Of a stretch of 64,000 bases of DNA, positions 2,049-33,837 are shown one piece after another. The translations under genes were made by a program, and so were the position numbers. Source of the stretch: Bdellovibrionales bacterium. GTDB lineage: Bacteria > Bdellovibrionota > UBA1018. Position 1 is the stretch's first letter. Each line of letters starts with the position of its first letter. The notes under the pieces were generated by a model. That model was not told the origin of the DNA, made no database searches, and saw only the letters and a program-made list of their open reading frames with translations. The DNA is taken from contig JAEUWC010000017.1 of assembly GCA_016786465.1 (NCBI GenBank), forward strand, positions 1 through 64,000, written 5' to 3'.

Positions 2049-3815
2049 CTAAGGGGTGCTTGAAAGTTTATCGTCATAGTAGCGTCTTGAGCAGTCCGAA
2101 TCGTTTTCGCCTTCGAAACAATAGGGCGTACTTCGGTTGATGTCTTCTAGCTTGATCAACGCAGTAGCGTAACTAGGCGGCGCTACCAAAACGTCACCTG
2201 AAACGATTTTTTCGGCTTGAATCATTCCATCTTCATACAGTGACACGATGATGTAATCTTCCTCAACGCCGCCGGCACCGATTTTCAAGGTGTAAATACG
2301 GCCTTCTTGGATTCCTTGCTTCTTTGAAACAGTTCGAACTAGTCCGGTCGGAACTTTCATTAAGGATTCGTGCCCGAACATGTCATTGCGCAAATTGATG
2401 AACTGATAAGTTCCATCAGAAAGAATGTGTTCAATGATGAAGTCATTTCTTCCCAACGGATCATCTAAACCGAACTTTGCACCGGACACTAAGTTCTTAT
2501 AACTGCCGATGTCGAACACCGCGAACTGGGCTAAGTCCTTCAGATCCATGATTTGTCCGGCAGTGCCCTGTTGATCGGTGCTTATGCCGACCTTGCCTTC
2601 GTCAAATTCAGCATGAAAGAAATGGCGATCAAGCCCGCTGTAGGTATTCCTTAGAAAAAGTACCGAACCTGATTTCAAATTCAAAGTCTTCGCGCCTTCG
2701 AAGCTAGAAACCGTAACAGTGGTTGATGCCTTTGCTTTCAATAGGCGCGAATTCATTTCCGACAAAGTCATGACCCGCTTTGAAGGGTAAGAAGTCAGTG
2801 TACTTACTTCAACCGATCCGGTACCGAAAATGGCCGAAATGCGGCACTTGATAAAGCGGTTTGGGTCAGACGTATTTTTCAGAAATACATCATCGCCGGT
2901 GCTCATTCCAGCTATCGACTGCACGGATTCCGTAACCGCTAATTCGCTTTTGCTTCCATTCAAAAATACAGAAACGGGATTGATCGGGCCCTGCGAAAGC
3001 GCAGATTCAAGTTCGACGCCACCATCGCTATAGGCAGTTTTCACAACGTATTCCTTCATCGATCCGTCTTTTTCTTGAAGAAAAACTTTCGATCCGACGT
3101 TCACGTTGCGTGAAACAACCCCCGCCGCGGTGGCTACTTTCAATTCCACTTGCTGCACCGTTTGAACCGCTTTCGCAAACTGTTCGTGATTTAGGTAGCT
3201 GGCTTGGTTGTTCTTGTTATTCACAACTTGAACGACGCCGTCGCTGTAGATTTGGGTCACACTGAATTGGTCATAGCCGACCGTTGCGCCGGGACTTCTT
3301 AATGTGACTGTGCCGCCGACTTGCAATGAATTCAGTGACGGTAACGCTTGAACGATTCGCGAAGACGCTTCGCCAGCCAAAAGGGTTTGGTAGCTTCCTG
3401 TCGGAGCATGAAACAGATACAAAGTGCCATCGCTATAGATTTGGGCAACCAGGTGCGATTCGTATTCTTGGGGTGAATTCTTCACGATGACCCGAGTGTG
3501 CTTTTCAATCGAAACGGTTTTTGATTCAGAAGGAAATGGAATCTGGACGTCGATCTTTTCGACGGGGAAAACCCGCTTCGATGCCAGATCGCTTAGGCTG
3601 ACTTCGCGCGAAGTGCCGGTGAAGGGATGGTAAAGAAGGACCGTGCCGTTGGAACGGGTCGTTGAAACGGTGTAAAATTCATATGCCGTCCCACCTTCAT
3701 GCAAAAAAACTTCTTCGCCCAGGTTCAGGGGTTTGTTCTGTGCAACTGCCTGGAACGAAAGAAGAATTCCGGAAATCAGGCAGATCGACAAAGATAGGGA
3801 ATGACGTTTTTTCAT
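2049..3815 (-). CDS. Secreted repeat protein A (YSDG-repeat family, unknown function)
   Basis: Family not recognised. The 588-residue product begins with a clear Sec signal peptide (MKKRHSLSLSIC..., cleavage likely after AVAQ). The rest divides into about eight repeats of 55-70 residues. Each starts with a Gly-x-x-Val-x-Leu strand and carries a core like QIYSDGTLYLF, TQIYSDGVVQV, KTAYSDGGVEL, EHILSDGTYQF or SLYEDGMIQAE. This suggests a chain of small beta domains, which is inference. The C-terminus holds a CFEGENDSDC cysteine pair, probably a disulfide. A diverged paralogue of the same length and layout lies at 4574-6355. Start: the ATG at 3815 directly precedes the signal peptide. Confidence 0.9.
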   Translation of the reverse strand: MKKRHSLSLSICLISGILLSFQAVAQNKPLNLGEEVFLHEGGTAYEFYTVSTTRSNGTVLLYHPFTGTSREVSLSDLASKRVFPVEKIDVQIPFPSESKTVSIEKHTRVIVKNSPQEYESHLVAQIYSDGTLYLFHAPTGSYQTLLAGEASSRIVQALPSLNSLQVGGTVTLRSPGATVGYDQFSVTQIYSDGVVQVVNNKNNQASYLNHEQFAKAVQTVQQVELKVATAAGVVSRNVNVGSKVFLQEKDGSMKEYVVKTAYSDGGVELESALSQGPINPVSVFLNGSKSELAVTESVQSIAGMSTGDDVFLKNTSDPNRFIKCRISAIFGTGSVEVSTLTSYPSKRVMTLSEMNSRLLKAKASTTVTVSSFEGAKTLNLKSGSVLFLRNTYSGLDRHFFHAEFDEGKVGISTDQQGTAGQIMDLKDLAQFAVFDIGSYKNLVSGAKFGLDDPLGRNDFIIEHILSDGTYQFINLRNDMFGHESLMKVPTGLVRTVSKKQGIQEGRIYTLKIGAGGVEEDYIIVSLYEDGMIQAEKIVSGDVLVAPPSYATALIKLEDINRSTPYCFEGENDSDCSRRYYDDKLSSTP

Positions 3816-3854
3816 TTGGGGCTCCGTATAGCCCCCGCTGAATACCTTATCAAA

Positions 3855-3876
3855 GTGTTTTGGTCAACTAAAACAC
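3855..3876. promoter_or_regulatory. Operator-like inverted repeat between divergent secreted-protein genes
   Basis: The arms GTGTTTT and AAAACAC flank an 8-nt centre (GGTCAACT). The repeat lies 40 bases upstream of the minus-strand repeat-protein gene and just upstream of the plus-strand genes. Its position and symmetry suggest a regulator site, but it could be chance symmetry in an AT-rich spacer. Confidence 0.3.
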
Positions 3877-3889
3877 ACAAGGAGAATTT

Positions 3890-3967
3890 ATGTATCGGAA
3901 TTTGACGCACCGAGTCTATTTTGATAATCCCGGTCCATGGGAAATTTTTTGGGTCGACGGTGGTTAG
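3890..3967 (+). CDS. Possible 25-aa leader ORF overlapping the next gene
   Basis: An AAGGAG ribosome site at 3879-3884 sits 5 bases before this ATG, the best Shine-Dalgarno in the spacer. The ORF (MYRNLTHRVYFDN..., TAG at 3965) overlaps the start of the gene at 3937 in another frame, and that gene has no good ribosome site of its own. Translational coupling through a leader peptide is one reading. A misplaced start or small sequencing indel in the downstream gene is another. Confidence 0.25.
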   Translation: MYRNLTHRVYFDNPGPWEIFWVDGG

Positions 3968-4497
3968 GGGTTTTGCCTTGGGTTTTCGGTGCTTTTGCTG
4001 CGGGATCAGCGCTGGCTTCGGGTCAGACTCCGTTTGATCAGATTTCAGGCTATTTCGCGCACGCGCGCGCAGTCGAATTCAATAAGGCAGAAGGAATCTA
4101 CGCGGGCCGATGCTTCGATCGAGAAGCGCCCGACCAAACCCTGGTCATGACCCTATTAATCGAGAATAAGTTGATTCGAAGTAGTGCGGGCCCGCTATTT
4201 GACGAAATCAAACCGGTTTTCACCATGGTCCCGTACTCGCTATCCACCGGCGAAATTGATCCCGTCAAGCTTTGGGACTTGGTCGACACAACGTCCATCG
4301 CACAGCTACGGTCGGATCTGGAAGCTAAAATTGGGTCAGATTGGGTAGTGACCCAAGAATCACCAGTAATTCAAGCGACCTACAAGGGCGTAGTAAAAAT
4401 CAGCGTCGGGACGAGCCAAGGCTACCTGATGCTTTCCGCAAGAAGCATTATGACCGCAGATGAAATCTTTGTCTGCTATTTCGAGAAGAAAAATTAA
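3937..4497 (+). CDS. Small exported protein, unknown function
   Basis: Family not recognised. The 186-residue product has an N-terminal Arg pair and a hydrophobic segment ending in SALASG, typical of a Sec signal peptide. The mature part is mixed alpha/beta with two cysteines, CFDRE near residue 59 and VCYFEKKN at the very end, which could form a disulfide. It lies between two divergent YSDG-repeat genes and runs in the same direction as the second, 76 bases upstream of it, so a shared transcript is likely. A TTGACG...GATAAT pair at 3902-3928 (15-nt spacing) would place the transcript start almost at the ATG. The start is uncertain because of the leader ORF at 3890. Confidence 0.75.
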   Translation: MGNFLGRRWLGVLPWVFGAFAAGSALASGQTPFDQISGYFAHARAVEFNKAEGIYAGRCFDREAPDQTLVMTLLIENKLIRSSAGPLFDEIKPVFTMVPYSLSTGEIDPVKLWDLVDTTSIAQLRSDLEAKIGSDWVVTQESPVIQATYKGVVKISVGTSQGYLMLSARSIMTADEIFVCYFEKKN

Positions 4498-4573
4498 CTG
4501 AATCTGAGTTGACCGGGGCTGTCGGGGAGAATAGCTTCCGGCCCGTTCAACGTCCTTAATTAACGGAGCTTTT

Positions 4574-6355
4574 ATGCGTTCAATTCTGCTACTTGCACTT
4601 TCTGTTTTGTCGATTCCTGCGTACGCCCAGACTACGGCGTCCCAGGTTGATGCTCCAGGTGTCGAGGTCTACATCAAAGAAAATGAACAGACCTACACTT
4701 ACTACGTGATTTCCGAAGTGCTCACTAACGGTTCGTTGAAACTTTACCAACCCTTTGCTGGTACGACTTTGGAAGTTGCGGCTGCAGACGTCGCAGCGAA
4801 GCGGGTTTTTCCACTGGATCAAATGACTGTAACGGTGGACTACTTCGGCGCTCCTAAATCGGTCGATTTGCAGAAGCGGACGCGGATCACAGTGAAAAAC
4901 GGTAAGACCTATGAATCTTTCGTTCTTTCGCAAATCTTCAGCGATGGAGCCTTGTATCTTTATCATGCACCGACTTCGACCTATTCGGTTTTGAAACCTG
5001 GAAACGTCGCGGGAAGCTTGGTCGATTCGTTACAGACTTACGACAACTTGGAAGTGGGCAAAACGATTATGGTCCGCAGAACCGATCGTGCTCGCCCTTA
5101 CATGACTTATTCTGTCTTGGGTATTTACAGCGACGGATCAATTGAAGTTCAGGACGCTCAAACCCAAAAAGTTCTTTGGGTCGATTTCAAGGATCTAAAA
5201 AATCAAGTCACTACGACGAAATCGATCGCACTTTCTTTTCAAATCGAAGGTGGGCAATCACCCAAGACGGTTTCAATTGGCAATTTGATTGTCGTTAAGG
5301 AAGCCAGCGGTGACTACACCGAATGTTACGTTCGAAACATTTACAGTGACGGCGGTGTCGAATTGGAAGTTCGCAACCGGGTAGGCGTACGGCTATACGC
5401 ATTTCCAGGCGATTCTACGGTTTTTGTCGAAACGCTAACGAAGCTCAGAAGCTTTTCAGTCGGCGAAGTCATCTACTTGAAGGACGCGCAGGGACGAAAC
5501 CGCTACGATACTCATAAAATTACCCAGATCTACGGTGACGGGTTGATGTACGTTCAGTCGTCACGCAAAACGATTCCCATGATGGCCGCCGCGCTTGAAC
5601 CTCGGAAGTTGAAAGCAGTAAAGGATTTGAAGGTGAATATTAAGGGCGTTTGGGGACCCGTTCCGTTCACGGCGACACGGGGTGCTTCCTTCAACGTTCA
5701 TAATACGGTTACCAATGGATACGCGGATGCTTACGTGACCGCTGTATTTGAAGACGGCAGTATCGGCATTACGGGGCGTTACTCGGATATTGATGCCTAC
5801 GTTTCAAAGCCGCTCTTTTCGAAGGCCGATTTCGAATCCACCGCGGTCGTCAGTGTTTCAAAGACAGCACGCTTGAACAATAAGCGCGTTTTCGCTTTGG
5901 TGACGGCTGCGGGAGCAGGCACCGAACGCTTGGATTACTCGTTAGGTTCGGTGTATTCGGACGGATTGGGGTCAATTACCGCCGTCGCGACCTACAATTC
6001 TGAACAGGTCGATCTGACGACGATCGATCCAATTGCAATCCTATCAGTCGATGAAATTGATGGCTTTAAAAGCGGGATCTATATTGAAACGAATTCAGAT
6101 GGATCTGAATCGGCGTATGCGGTTCCTGCCCTTTTTGAAGATTCAATGGCACGCGGGTTGAAGGTGAAAGATCAGAATACCTTCTACAACATCACTTGGT
6201 CTGGCGGGTACATTTACGACGTCAAGAATCGTCTGATGACGACTGCAGAACTGGGCAAGATGGAAGTATTCTGCACGGCGGGCGAAAGAATGGATACTTG
6301 TCAGCAGCGTTTCATGCGGGATCGCTTTCCGATCCTAAAGCAGCCCGTGCCTTGA
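4574..6355 (+). CDS. Secreted repeat protein B (YSDG-repeat family, unknown function)
   Basis: Paralogue of the protein at 2049-3815; function unknown. The 593 residues start with a signal peptide (cleavage after AYAQ). About eight repeats follow, with cores such as SQIFSDGALYLY, LGIYSDGSIEV, RNIYSDGGVEL, TQIYGDGLMYV and GSVYSDGLGSI. Repeat 2 is almost the same in both proteins (YLYHAPT versus YLFHAPT), while later repeats have diverged. Like its partner it ends with a Cys-x6-Cys-type pair (CTAGERMDTC). A GGAG ribosome site precedes the ATG. A strong hairpin terminator lies 17 bases after the stop. The pair probably arose by inverted duplication and acts outside the cytoplasmic membrane. Confidence 0.92.
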   Translation: MRSILLLALSVLSIPAYAQTTASQVDAPGVEVYIKENEQTYTYYVISEVLTNGSLKLYQPFAGTTLEVAAADVAAKRVFPLDQMTVTVDYFGAPKSVDLQKRTRITVKNGKTYESFVLSQIFSDGALYLYHAPTSTYSVLKPGNVAGSLVDSLQTYDNLEVGKTIMVRRTDRARPYMTYSVLGIYSDGSIEVQDAQTQKVLWVDFKDLKNQVTTTKSIALSFQIEGGQSPKTVSIGNLIVVKEASGDYTECYVRNIYSDGGVELEVRNRVGVRLYAFPGDSTVFVETLTKLRSFSVGEVIYLKDAQGRNRYDTHKITQIYGDGLMYVQSSRKTIPMMAAALEPRKLKAVKDLKVNIKGVWGPVPFTATRGASFNVHNTVTNGYADAYVTAVFEDGSIGITGRYSDIDAYVSKPLFSKADFESTAVVSVSKTARLNNKRVFALVTAAGAGTERLDYSLGSVYSDGLGSITAVATYNSEQVDLTTIDPIAILSVDEIDGFKSGIYIETNSDGSESAYAVPALFEDSMARGLKVKDQNTFYNITWSGGYIYDVKNRLMTTAELGKMEVFCTAGERMDTCQQRFMRDRFPILKQPVP

Positions 6356-6371: not shown

Positions 6372-6413
6372 AAAAAATCAAAGGGCGGCTCGTCTTGAGC
6401 CGCCCTTTCTATT
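6372..6413. terminator. Bidirectional Rho-independent terminator (copy 1 of a 37-nt repeat)
   Basis: Perfect 12-bp stem AAAGGGCGGCTC / GAGCCGCCCTTT with a GTCTT loop. It has T-rich tails on both strands (CTATTTTT on plus, GATTTTTT on minus). It serves the convergent genes ending at 6355 and 6429. Bases 6372-6408 are identical to 7371-7407. Confidence 0.9.
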
Positions 6414-6428
6414 TTTCCGAACCCAATT

Positions 6429-7100
6429 CTAAGGAACGATAGTTTCTAGGTACGTTCCGACGGCAACTCCGGGATCTTCTTCTTCCTTGGTTTCCGTCAC
6501 GTCCTGACCGACGACCGTTTGCTTGATGTGAGCATTTGGGTCAAAGCTAAACAGCATTCTGACTTTGGTCACATCCAGTGCGGCGCCAACAACAAGTAAT
6601 TGTTCCGAATCCCAGATCCAAATATTGTTCGAATTGGCTGCAACGGTCCCCGCAAGGTTCAATACGAATTGAGCCCGAATCTTTCCTCCGTGAAACGGGG
6701 TATCAAATAGATCCTTAATCTTGTTGCCCGAAAGACCCATGATCTTCATGCGTCCGTTTCCAGAAAACGAAAGGTCTGCGATCAGTCCCGTGGCGGTGAT
6801 ACGAAGCTTAACTCCGGGGATGACCGTTTTTCTCGTCGAAAACGAGACCAAGTCGCGCTCATTGATGACGACATCGCCGGTCAAGTAGTAGTAGTTTCGA
6901 ACGTCCAAATCAATGTTTGGCGTCGCTATGTAAATGTGGGGTGTCCTGTGTTTTTCGTCTCTGGTCCATGTTTCGCAATCCGAGCAGACGGCCTCGTACG
7001 ATCCGATATTGAAGTAAGCATCTTCAAGTTCGAATGCAGCGTTGGCGTGATTTGAATAGAGACCTAAAACAGTAACTACGGACAACAAGAGCGACTTCAT
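6429..7100 (-). CDS. Secreted protein of unknown function
   Basis: Family not recognised. The 223-residue product has a signal peptide ending NHANA, then a beta-rich mature part. A cysteine pair CSDC lies near residue 38. A run of three tyrosines and stretches such as GKIRAQFVLNLAG and GNGRMKIMGLSG suggest repeated beta strands. The tail is acidic (TKEEEDPG). A GAGGAA ribosome site precedes the ATG at 7100. The gene converges on the YSDG-repeat gene and shares its terminator. The flanking 37-nt terminator copies bracket this gene. Confidence 0.82.
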   Translation of the reverse strand: MKSLLLSVVTVLGLYSNHANAAFELEDAYFNIGSYEAVCSDCETWTRDEKHRTPHIYIATPNIDLDVRNYYYLTGDVVINERDLVSFSTRKTVIPGVKLRITATGLIADLSFSGNGRMKIMGLSGNKIKDLFDTPFHGGKIRAQFVLNLAGTVAANSNNIWIWDSEQLLVVGAALDVTKVRMLFSFDPNAHIKQTVVGQDVTETKEEEDPGVAVGTYLETIVP

Positions 7101-7565: not shown

Positions 7566-7982
7566 CTACGCAAGCCTTAGGCGTTTGCCTAGGCTCTTGG
7601 ATCGGTGGCCATCGATGTGCAAGGATTCGCGTCTTTCGCTTTCTTCCTTACAGCCCACACACATGGTGGTCGTTGGCCGGACTTCCAGACGTTTCATTTC
7701 AATGTCTTCATCACAGACTTCGCATGAACCGAAAGTTCCGTCGGAAATCCGTTTCAAAGCTTCATCGATCTTTTTTAGGTAAAGGGTCTCGCGGTTGCGC
7801 AGGCGCATGCGCATCTCGGTTTCCATTTCCGTTGCCGTAATATCTGCTTCATCGGCAAGGTCTTCGGTCTGGAAATGGAAGTCTTCATTCACATAGCGGT
7901 TCGAGTACAATAGGTTCTTACGTTCCTGTTCGAACATGCTTTTGAACTTCATCACGACTTCGCTTCGAGTTTGGTTTTCCAT
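7566..7982 (-). CDS. DksA/TraR-family C4 zinc-finger protein (paralogue 1)
   Basis: The 138-residue product has an N-terminal helical region, then the family core GTFGSCEVCDEDI and a second CVGC pair, giving a four-cysteine zinc finger (Cys87, Cys90, Cys108, Cys111). DksA/TraR proteins enter the RNA polymerase secondary channel and shift promoter choice, often with ppGpp. A role of that kind is inferred here. It is shorter than E. coli DksA (151 aa) and lacks its exact coiled-coil-tip sequence, so it is a relative and not proven DksA. An AAGGAG ribosome site lies before the ATG. A paralogue sits at 9444-9854. Confidence 0.88.
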   Translation of the reverse strand: MENQTRSEVVMKFKSMFEQERKNLLYSNRYVNEDFHFQTEDLADEADITATEMETEMRMRLRNRETLYLKKIDEALKRISDGTFGSCEVCDEDIEMKRLEVRPTTTMCVGCKEESERRESLHIDGHRSKSLGKRLRLA

Positions 7983-8630: not shown

Positions 8631-9437
8631 TTATGAACAACGTCCGCCCGGCAGAGTCTTTTCAACGGCGAGCCGATCGACGGTTTTGTAAATCTTTTTC
8701 CCTTCGGAATCTTTTTTTCCAGTTGGGATTTTGACCTTCTTCTTTACGAAAAGAAGGACTTCGCAGTCGCTTGCGCCGCCGGTAATCAGTGACGTTTCCC
8801 GAAACATCAGAACTTCTTCATCCCCGTTTCCGGTAAAGTCAGCGCGTGCGATTTCCTTGAAAGTCGCATGCTGACCTTCATGGGCGTATTGCCCTTGGGG
8901 TTTCGATTCAATTCGGAATCCTCCCTTTAGGGGAACGATCACGATCCGGTCGCCTTCCTTGATTAAAGGCAGCGCTTCTTTGGGGAACCCCTTCTTGACG
9001 GCTAGGTCAGAAAGGTCGTCCTTGAAACGGTTTTTGCGAAAGGGTTGAGCGTTTTTCAGCATTCCTAAAATCTGGCATTGCAGATTCAGATCCGTGATTA
9101 AAACCGCAGACCCCGGATTCAAGGCTTCTTCAACGGGGATTGGCTTTTTAACGATAGCAGCGCAATTTTCAGGAAGCGTTCTAGGGTACTTCGGAACCAA
9201 GCGAATCAGCTTCAGTCCCAAGCGACGTTTCAGCGCCTTTTCGATCAAGGGTCTTTCGACTGCGCCTTCCAGCCGATTCCCTTCGACGCTAATGGGCATC
9301 CGAACAAAGACGGAATTTTCATCCGTTTTGCGGTCTTCTTCCGACGCTTCAGCGGAACCGTGGGCAATTAGTCCTAAAAGTAAAACCCCGAGGACAAGCC
9401 AGGCTCGCCTCGGGGTTTTGATCGCGTTGCGAACCAT
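8631..9437 (-). CDS. Exported protein of unknown function with an FG-GAP-like segment
   Basis: Family not recognised. The 268-residue product has a basic start and a strong hydrophobic signal sequence ending HGSAEA. The mature part has three isolated cysteines plus one at the C-terminus (CS-end). An ARADFTGNGDEEVLMF segment near residue 200 resembles the Asp-rich calcium loops of FG-GAP/VCBS repeats. The gene starts 6 bases after the DksA-like gene ending at 9444, so co-transcription is expected. Oddly, a perfect 12-bp hairpin at 9382-9419 lies inside the signal-peptide codons. No paralogue is seen in the window. Confidence 0.82.
   Translation of the reverse strand: MVRNAIKTPRRAWLVLGVLLLGLIAHGSAEASEEDRKTDENSVFVRMPISVEGNRLEGAVERPLIEKALKRRLGLKLIRLVPKYPRTLPENCAAIVKKPIPVEEALNPGSAVLITDLNLQCQILGMLKNAQPFRKNRFKDDLSDLAVKKGFPKEALPLIKEGDRIVIVPLKGGFRIESKPQGQYAHEGQHATFKEIARADFTGNGDEEVLMFRETSLITGGASDCEVLLFVKKKVKIPTGKKDSEGKKIYKTVDRLAVEKTLPGGRCS
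9382..9419 (-). terminator. Terminator-like hairpin inside a signal-peptide coding sequence
   Basis: Perfect 12-bp stem AAAACCCCGAGG / CCTCGGGGTTTT with a 14-nt loop. It begins 18 bases inside the gene starting at 9437. U-rich bases occur in the 3' arm on both strands. It follows the DksA-like gene ending at 9444 and could end or attenuate transcription between the two genes, or regulate translation. Confidence 0.6.
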
Positions 9438-9443
9438 TCTTGA

Positions 9444-9854
9444 CTAAGCGTAACGCCTAGAAAAGGTTTCGCCTAGACTCTTGTGAAGACGGCCGGTCGC
9501 CATCATTCCTTCGCGACGTTCTTCCTCTTCTTTGCAGCTGACGCAAAGAGTAGCGGTAGGACGCGCCTCAAGGCGGCGAAGCTCAATGTCTTCGTCGCAC
9601 TCGGTGCAGGTCCCGAACGTTCCATCTTCAATCCTTCGAAGCGCCTCGTCCAGTTTCTTCACATAAAGGACTTCACGGTTACAAAGCCGCATCCGCATTG
9701 CCTGTTCGGCGTCGGATGATGCCTGATCCACTTCGTCCATTCGGTCATCGGTGCTCACACTGAAGTCTTCGCGAAGAACCTTGTCTGCATACAGAACGCT
9801 TTCGCGTTGCTGCAGAAAAAGTCGCTTGAACTTCAATACAGTCGCTTTTCTCAT
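9444..9854 (-). CDS. DksA/TraR-family C4 zinc-finger protein (paralogue 2)
   Basis: The 136-residue product is clearly related to that at 7566-7982. Both have AMRMRL/EMRMRL, DEALRRI/DEALKRI, DGTFG and CDEDIE blocks, and a C4 finger (here Cys83, Cys86, Cys104, Cys107). It probably modulates RNA polymerase in the DksA/TraR manner. Its start codon overlaps the mglA stop by four bases (ATGA), so it is the next gene of the dnaX-recR-mglA row and may be translationally coupled to mglA. The likely real start is the ATG at 9854. Confidence 0.88.
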   Translation of the reverse strand: MRKATVLKFKRLFLQQRESVLYADKVLREDFSVSTDDRMDEVDQASSDAEQAMRMRLCNREVLYVKKLDEALRRIEDGTFGTCTECDEDIELRRLEARPTATLCVSCKEEEERREGMMATGRLHKSLGETFSRRYA

Positions 9855-10444
9855 GGTTTTTCCCCCCCTTTGAGTTCGCGAATCACCCTCAGGCTGATTT
9901 CCTGAAGGGTTTCCATCACCCCTTTTCCCCGATTGGCGGACGCTTCGAAAAACGGCCGACGAGTCGGGTTAAAGGTTTTCTGGAGTTCTTCAAGCGTGAC
10001 TGCGCTAGGCACATCGCGCTTGTTGTACTGAAAAACCACCGGAAGGCGGTCAAAGTCGTAACCTTGGCCTTCCAGAGCTTTCTTCAGATCATCGAATGCT
10101 TCAATATTGGCTTCCATTCGTTCTGCGGCAGAATCCGCGACGAAAACGATTCCATCGACGCCTTTCAAAACGAACTGGCGGGAAACATCGTAAAAGATTT
10201 GGCCGGGCAAAGTGTAAAGGTGGAACCGTGTTCGGTAGCCTTCCAGTTCTCCGATCGAAAGCGGAAGTAAGTCATAGAAAAGTGTGCGTTCATTGTCCGA
10301 ACTAAGCTGCATCAGGCGACCCTTGGACTGGGTTTGCGTCTGATCATAGATGTACTGAATGTTTGTGGTCTTGCCGCTTAAGCCAGGGCCCACATAGACC
10401 ACTTTGCAAATGACTTCTTTTGCGGCGTGGTTGATCAGGCTCAT
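9851..10444 (-). CDS. mglA: MglA-type Ras-like GTPase (cell polarity/motility)
   Basis: The 197-residue product is a small cytoplasmic GTPase of the MglA family, which sets the leading pole in Myxococcus and works with RomR-type proteins in Bdellovibrio. Visible motifs: P-loop GPGLSGKTT (residues 19-27), switch region TLPGQ (78-82) and specificity motif NKRD (141-144). Length equals M. xanthus MglA (195). No MglB gene is visible in the window, so the GTPase-activating partner must be elsewhere or absent. The gene overlaps recR and the DksA-like gene by 4 bases on either side. Confidence 0.95.
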   Translation of the reverse strand: MSLINHAAKEVICKVVYVGPGLSGKTTNIQYIYDQTQTQSKGRLMQLSSDNERTLFYDLLPLSIGELEGYRTRFHLYTLPGQIFYDVSRQFVLKGVDGIVFVADSAAERMEANIEAFDDLKKALEGQGYDFDRLPVVFQYNKRDVPSAVTLEELQKTFNPTRRPFFEASANRGKGVMETLQEISLRVIRELKGGEKP

Positions 10445-33073: not shown

Positions 33074-33837
33074 TGACCCAATCGAAGAAGATTCTTGGAT
33101 ATCTGGTGATGGCCGCGATGGGAGCTGGATGCGCATCGACGGGGATCGTGGTTGCCACCCGGCCCCAGCCGCACTGGCTGAAGTCTGCCTTTAAGGGTTC
33201 AGAAAAAGAAAAAGCCGCGATTCCTACGGATTCTGGACTTTCGCTTCATTACGACCGATCGGATGTCGTGTTCTATGAAGACACTTTGCCTGACGGCAGC
33301 GTGTGGCTTCACTATGCCGTGGTCATCAAGAATTCAGCAGGCGGAAGCGTTGGCGTTCGTGGCGATCAAGTCGAAATCGTCGCAGACGCGGTTCCCACCG
33401 AAGTTCCAGCGAACAAAATTCCAAAAGACGCTACGGATCTGGAAGGCAAGCCGATTGATGAACAAACGGTTGGATCTAAACATTCTGATCAGATCGTTCT
33501 GAGCCAATCGGCGGACGAAGAAGCGCCAAAAGCCGAAGAAGCGCCAAAAGCCGAAGAAGCGCCCAAAGCAGAAGAAGCCGCCCCAGCGGCGCCGGCGGTT
33601 CCAAAGATCAAAATGCGCAAAGTTTTGACCCGCCATACGGCAAAAGCGGAATACAAGAAGGGTGATCGTTTAAACAGTGTCGCTTCAAAAAGCTATTCGC
33701 GCACGCCAGTCAATTTTCGGATTTCGAAAGAAGTGGTCGAACACTTCGCAGGCACACCGAATCCCGTTTTCTTACAGGTTCCTTTAACTAACGGGAGAAG
33801 CCTTCGATTGCCGATTTGGCTTTGGAGGATGCAATGA
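33073..33837 (+). CDS. Lipoprotein with EEAPKA repeats, unknown function
   Basis: A 254-residue lipoprotein: the lipobox MGAGCAST puts the acylated Cys near residue 20. A folded part (about 50-120, with DGSVWLHYAVVIKN) is followed by an 18-bp tandem repeat at 33517-33588 coding for EEAPKA about three and a half times. The C-terminal domain then includes KMRKVLTRHTAKAEYKKGD. The low-complexity linker probably spans the periplasm. The start is coupled to the previous gene by TAATG. Function unknown. Confidence 0.82.
   Translation: MTQSKKILGYLVMAAMGAGCASTGIVVATRPQPHWLKSAFKGSEKEKAAIPTDSGLSLHYDRSDVVFYEDTLPDGSVWLHYAVVIKNSAGGSVGVRGDQVEIVADAVPTEVPANKIPKDATDLEGKPIDEQTVGSKHSDQIVLSQSADEEAPKAEEAPKAEEAPKAEEAAPAAPAVPKIKMRKVLTRHTAKAEYKKGDRLNSVASKSYSRTPVNFRISKEVVEHFAGTPNPVFLQVPLTNGRSLRLPIWLWRMQ
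33517..33588 (+). repeat. Tandem 18-bp coding repeat (EEAPKA)
   Basis: Unit GAAGAAGCGCCAAAAGCC occurs twice exactly (33517, 33535), a third copy (33553) differs at two positions, and a fourth (33571) is degenerate. It codes for the Glu-Glu-Ala-Pro-Lys-Ala linker of the lipoprotein. Copy number may vary among strains. Confidence 0.9.

Follow-up and report, generated by a model that had tools for sequence, protein, structure and literature searches.

The stretch analyzed here (the window) comprises positions 1 to 64,000 of contig JAEUWC010000017.1 from a Bdellovibrionales bacterium (GCA_016786465.1), and near its start lie two divergent genes for exported repeat proteins, called A and B, that are predicted to fold as strings of small β-barrels. 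Protein A (588 amino acids, aa) is encoded at 2049 to 3815 on the reverse strand and protein B (593 aa) at 4574 to 6355 on the forward strand. Each open reading frame (ORF) comprises a signal peptide, eight SH3-like units, and a C-terminal segment with a C-x8-C cysteine pair (Cys566 and Cys575 in A, Cys567 and Cys576 in B), while the mature proteins contain one other cysteine each, within the repeats. By inspection, both N termini resemble Sec signal peptides and lack a lipobox. The two proteins are 28% identical end to end (E value of 6e-67), and a gene for a 186-aa protein with two cysteines and an export-like N terminus (3937 to 4497, forward strand) lies between them, 5' of B. An earlier note on this DNA had described the two exported proteins, their lengths, their inverted arrangement around a small exported protein, and their C-terminal cysteine pairs, all of which were confirmed.

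Eight repeats with a shared history

Eight repeat cores could be placed in each protein, at residues 53, 126, 189, 261, 329, 403, 464, and 526 of A and residues 49, 121, 184, 256, 319, 391, 460, and 520 of B. The earlier note had counted about eight repeats of 55 to 70 residues with a Tyr-Ser-Asp-Gly core; the number stands, but the units as cut are slightly longer, at 60 to 74 aa. A strict form of the core motif, [IVLAF][YF][SGEN]DG, is present four times in A and six times in B, far above the count in shuffled versions of the two sequences (mean of about 0.02 and maximum of 1 in 5,000 trials), but the exact YSDG is gone from units A1, A5, A6, B1, and B8. In the unit alignment, conservation reaches 90% at a single column, the Gly of the turn.

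About 8 to 10 extra residues follow units 1, 3, and 5, dividing units 1 to 6 into three pairs of about 135 residues. In protein A, on the reverse strand, these pairs are encoded at 3330 to 3728, 2910 to 3329, and 2508 to 2906, followed by units 7 and 8 (2145 to 2498), which have no hairpin linker between them. The corresponding segments of protein B, on the forward strand, are 4652 to 5041, 5045 to 5446, 5450 to 5866, and 5876 to 6226. The linker lengths led us to expect a two-unit evolutionary repeat, but this was rejected, as identity is no higher between units of equal parity (16.3%) than between units of opposite parity (19.4%). The pairs are therefore a structural grouping only, with no visible step of repeat growth. 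Identity averages 28% between units at the same position in A and B, compared with 16% for other unit pairs, which means that the full set of eight units was present before a duplication gave rise to the two genes.

Neither protein scored above a family cutoff in Pfam and NCBIfam scans, and searches of PDB sequences were empty or insignificant, in agreement with the statement in the earlier note that no sequence family was recognizable. Specifically, no Tudor-type Pfam family matched above the cutoff, and no family of the cell-wall-binding bacterial SH3 (SH3b) domains in Pfam or NCBIfam matched at E values of up to 1. Pfam matches below curated cutoffs were DUF4819 (0.019), bPH_5 (0.0019), and DUF3255 (0.024); the bPH_5 match spans one unit only and was not counted as homology.

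A predicted SH3-like barrel

Units 1 and 2 of protein A were modeled with AlphaFold2, using an alignment of the six unit pairs of A and B as input. The resulting model has a mean predicted local distance difference test score (pLDDT) of 87.5 and a predicted template modeling score (pTM) of 0.73, and its strands run β1-β2-β3-β4-helix-β5, then a hairpin, then the same barrel again. This is the five-strand order of SH3-like domains, β1-β2-β3-β4-(3-10 or short helix)-β5, as far as the prediction goes. Mapped onto the sequence, a unit consists of β1 (VFLHE), a loop, β2, a tight S-[DN]-G turn, β3, a short turn, β4, a helical turn (SDLASKR), and β5, and the hairpin between barrels corresponds to the stretch KIDVQIPF...KTVSIE. 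The repeat is thus very probably an SH3-like small β-barrel in these models, which does not support the suggestion in the earlier note of a new periplasmic or surface repeat fold; a match to an SH3-like domain was what the note itself had listed as counting against that suggestion. In the predicted barrel, the Tyr-Ser-Asp-Gly core is the β2-β3 turn; the G-x-x-V-x-L strand would be β1, and the I-Y-S-D-G-x-V-x-V core would supply β2, the tight turn, and β3. The modeled barrels appear to be grouped in twos through the extra β-hairpin linker of the odd units.

Foldseek comparison of the two-unit model with the PDB points the same way. Nearly all of the 50 matches listed were tandem Tudor, Agenet, KOW, or SH3-like structures, mostly at probabilities of 0.8 to 1.0. 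These included the tandem Tudor domains of BAHCC1, 53BP1, Sgf29, SETDB1, and FMRP, the tandem Agenet domains of ADCP1 and AGDP3, KOW6-7 of DSIF, and the SH3-like tandem of KIN. In a model of the full B chain, the barrel pattern recurred up to roughly unit 6, with a pLDDT of mostly 75 to 90 over the first 380 or so modeled residues, and the best Foldseek match was the KOW-rich Spt5 (E value of 1.6e-6), followed by MBT, SETDB1, and AGDP3 repeats. Eight β-rich repeats of 60 to 74 aa could also be read as the eight four-stranded blades of a β-propeller, with no separate barrels, and some matches to the full chain were propellers (DDB1, EMC1, and NirF). However, these had probabilities of 0.1 to 0.5 and root mean square deviations near 40 Å, compared with probabilities of 0.9 to 1.0 for the Tudor, KOW, and MBT matches. 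In addition, strands 4 and 5 are joined by a helical turn in the confident two-unit model, and its units by a hairpin, and no propeller was among the best matches listed for this model. A propeller is therefore very unlikely.

Tandem Tudor, Agenet, and KOW proteins such as 53BP1, BAHCC1, ADCP1, and DSIF/Spt5 share with A and B the predicted strand order, the barrel unit, and the tandem arrangement of barrels, as well as a Gly-x-x-V start and a V-x-x-I-x-S-D-G-x-V-x-V pattern across β2, the turn, and β3. Barrels of the Tudor and KOW type are best known inside cells, as binders of histone tails or RNA polymerase, and Tudor and Agenet domains are readers of methyl-lysine or methyl-arginine. In contrast to these proteins, A and B are exported bacterial proteins with eight units and hairpin linkers, have no sequence match in Pfam or the PDB, and place their barrels differently (template modeling [TM] score of at most 0.43). 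The unit alignment shows no evident conservation of an aromatic cage, with aromatic residues kept at two columns in only about half of the units.

Relatives in the phylum and genes nearby

When a hidden Markov model (HMM) profile built from the sixteen units was run on the complete 3.63-Mb genome, with matches accepted at E values of up to 10, it recovered exactly those sixteen units and no others. BLAST- and profile-level searches covered 34 additional genomes in the family, 54 in the order, and 57 in the class, and no close homologue was found in any of them. The expanded paralogue set that the earlier note had envisaged in this lineage, with further members to be found through such a profile, is not supported by these results, which leave two copies in this genome and none detected in the 57 others of the class. 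Searches of plasmids and phages found no homologues, and neither did conserved-peptide-pattern scans of GTDB 220 and viral contigs, a type of scan that can miss distant relatives. When the full-length profile was searched against 369 genomes of the phylum, three weak matches were obtained, one of which is credible (L012; E value of 2.4e-5). The other two were rejected: by inspection, L013 is a large outer-membrane LptD-like protein, and L014 looked spurious.

The credible match is an exported 477-aa protein with PF18820 (“Bdellovibrio beta-sandwich”) and five SH3-like repeats. Bdellovibrio-type genomes encode several further exported proteins (L016, L018, L020, L030, and L033) in which 5 to 7 SH3-like repeats, flanked by Cys, stand in tandem; a PF18820-like domain is at the N terminus of most of them. 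In Pfam scans of L012 and L020, the β-sandwich alone scored above the cutoff, and the repeat appears to be without a model; the best SH3-like Pfam match of a relative of this kind, below threshold, was YajC, which is SH3-like. A search of the available literature collection found no paper on Bdellovibrio SH3-like repeats. A profile of the L012 repeats detected many more, with matches in 27 of 358 genomes and as many as 12 units in a single genome. The family of our bacterium has members as well, among them a six-repeat exported protein of 379 aa (G019:C1, locus L070) in another genus (G019).

Could the pair be divergent members of this group? In this reading, exported SH3-like repeat proteins would form a clan that spans the phylum, Bdellovibrio-type genomes included, and A and B would have lost its per-repeat disulfide and N-terminal β-sandwich while keeping the clan function. 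This explanation agrees on fold with the eight-barrel scaffold proposed below, and the two part ways over origin and over what determines function. The L012 match and the existence of a six-repeat exported member in the same family support it. In addition, an hhalign comparison of the A/B pair profile with 119 collected Bdellovibrio-type repeats gave a probability of 94% and a score of 38.7, compared with a maximum of 15.0 in 100 column shuffles, and the alignment is in register at the YSDG/YSNG core. When 81 ORFs of the window were scored against these repeats, A and B were the two best, and unit 3 of A is the closest of its units. Proteins with PF18820 (BD_b_sandwich; L012, L016, L018, and L020) also share with A and B a signal peptide, tandem units (5 to 7 in those proteins), and a core, VGD-x-V ... 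V-x-x-[IV]-[YF]-S-[ND]-G-x-V-x-V, in the same register.

Against membership, the match spans about 47 residues and the fold is a very common one, so that convergence on the SH3-like β2-turn-β3 pattern is possible. Proteins A and B outscored all 4,000 shuffled sequences in hmmsearch with a five-repeat model, but with a larger model 1 of 4,000 fell between A and B. G019:C1 is exported and has tandem V-x-x-V-F-S-N-G-x-V-x-V units, like A and B, but groups clearly with the Bdellovibrio-type repeats (hhalign probability of 98.8%), whereas the G019 repeats alone matched A/B weakly (probability of 25% and score of 22.6, compared with 16.6 for the null). The units also differ in construction. Those of the PF18820 proteins are about 50 aa long, have a Cys at every boundary, and are preceded by an N-terminal β-sandwich, whereas those of A and B, at 60 to 74 aa, are 10 to 20 residues longer and have no boundary Cys, and the Pfam scan found no PF18820 in either protein. 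Taken together, clan membership has slightly better than even odds. Because the single-domain HMM search was weaker, the G019 comparison was weak, and the boundary Cys and β-sandwich are missing, kinship judged from sequence is only probable, and A and B are treated as related to the Bdellovibrio-type repeat proteins but are not filed as members. The pair is an orphan sequence family of known fold, with probable distant cousins in the phylum.

The genomic surroundings differ from those in G002, the nearest relative that carries argGH. The argH gene ends at 2048, tail to tail with the protein A gene; in G002, the genes that come next are, by inspection, carA and carB and not A and B. Since the relatives have no homologues and the genes after argGH differ, the A/B block is specific to its own genome among those searched. 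The 186-aa gene, 76 bases upstream of B, is probably cotranscribed with it; its product had no Pfam or NCBIfam match, and searches of the 54 further genomes in the order found no homologue of it. By eye, a 25-codon ORF with a good Shine-Dalgarno sequence, AGGAGAA (3890 to 3967, forward strand), overlaps the start of the 186-aa ORF (ATG at 3937) in another frame, and could encode a leader peptide or indicate that the 186-aa start is misplaced. Between B and the convergent gene at 6429 to 7100 is a terminator-like hairpin at 6380 to 6408, with a 13-bp stem, a T-rich tail on both sides, and no strand assigned; it is a pattern match only, and such sites are no more frequent across the whole region than in shuffles (8 compared with 6.7).

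Farther along, the genes at 6429 to 7100 and 8631 to 9437 (both reverse strand) encode proteins of 223 and 268 aa that are exported by inspection and have no Pfam or NCBIfam match above the cutoff. Two DksA/TraR-type zinc-finger proteins (Pfam zf-dskA_traR and DksA_N) are encoded about 1.5 kb apart at 7566 to 7982 and 9444 to 9854 (reverse strand). A small Ras/Arf-like GTPase gene at 9851 to 10444 (reverse strand), probably MglA-like by inspection, overlaps the start of a DksA-type gene and, again by inspection, is adjoined by recR and dnaX. A tandem array at 33516 to 33578 has 3.5 copies of an 18-base unit (95% match).

A proposed role in the envelope

Our favored interpretation is that A and B are exported (periplasmic or surface) chains of eight consecutive SH3-like small β-barrels that end in a short segment with a probable disulfide; in units 1 to 6, the extra β-hairpin that follows every odd barrel would group the barrels in twos. 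Known tandem SH3-like barrels use loops for binding peptides, nucleic acids, or polysaccharides. Most likely, the barrel string would similarly act as a nonenzymatic multivalent scaffold in the cell envelope, with inter-strand loops holding an extended peptide or polysaccharide, such as peptidoglycan or the tail of an envelope protein. Pfam and NCBIfam scans found no enzymatic domain in either protein. We give this reading as a whole, exported eight-barrel proteins acting as a multivalent binding scaffold, a probability of roughly 0.6. The analysis itself shows the export signals (by inspection), the number of repeats, the paralogy of A and B, and the confidence with which the barrel fold is predicted. 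The scaffold role in the envelope, for which we infer the location, ligand, and disulfide, is by itself fairly likely.

Several results weigh against this interpretation. Foldseek matches to the two-unit model had E values of 2e-3 at best, none reaching 0.001, with TM scores of no more than about 0.43, and the top-ranked match, 4l0j, is not a Tudor protein. With such low TM scores and E values above 0.001, the mutual placement of the barrels matches nothing solved; the modest E values and low TM scores probably come from this placement, with single barrels agreeing. The full-chain B model is moderate (mean pLDDT of 68.7 and pTM of 0.47), and units 7 and 8 and the tail are poorly resolved in it. 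Finally, no ligand-binding or surface residue is conserved across units in the unit alignment.

Conservation between units is confined to structural core positions, which might also be expected if the pair were structural envelope material without a specific ligand, such as a spacer from outer membrane to peptidoglycan or a surface fiber, in which the barrels set length and stiffness. The long repetitive chain and the lack of a catalytic domain are consistent with this. Nevertheless, Pfam and NCBIfam scans found no OmpA-like peptidoglycan-binding domain in either protein, no lipid anchor was seen by inspection, and there are two copies only, 28% identical, making a purely structural function unlikely.

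Beyond the scaffold role that we prefer, a bolder proposal is that A and B represent an undescribed exported family, seen so far in one genome, in which rigid, hairpin-locked barrel pairs build an eight-barrel rod or superhelix, that A, B, and the small exported protein form one envelope assembly, and that all of these belong to a wider, unrecognized use of extracytoplasmic Tudor-like barrels in predatory bacteria and their relatives. We regard this full proposal as speculative and rather improbable. In A and B and in distant relatives across the phylum, the findings suggest that barrel strings of the Tudor/KOW kind go to the envelope in Bdellovibrio-related bacteria, and the repeat apparently has no curated Pfam family. 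With a named repeat family, annotators could recognize these proteins, and research on predatory bacteria would gain a defined set of envelope proteins to test.

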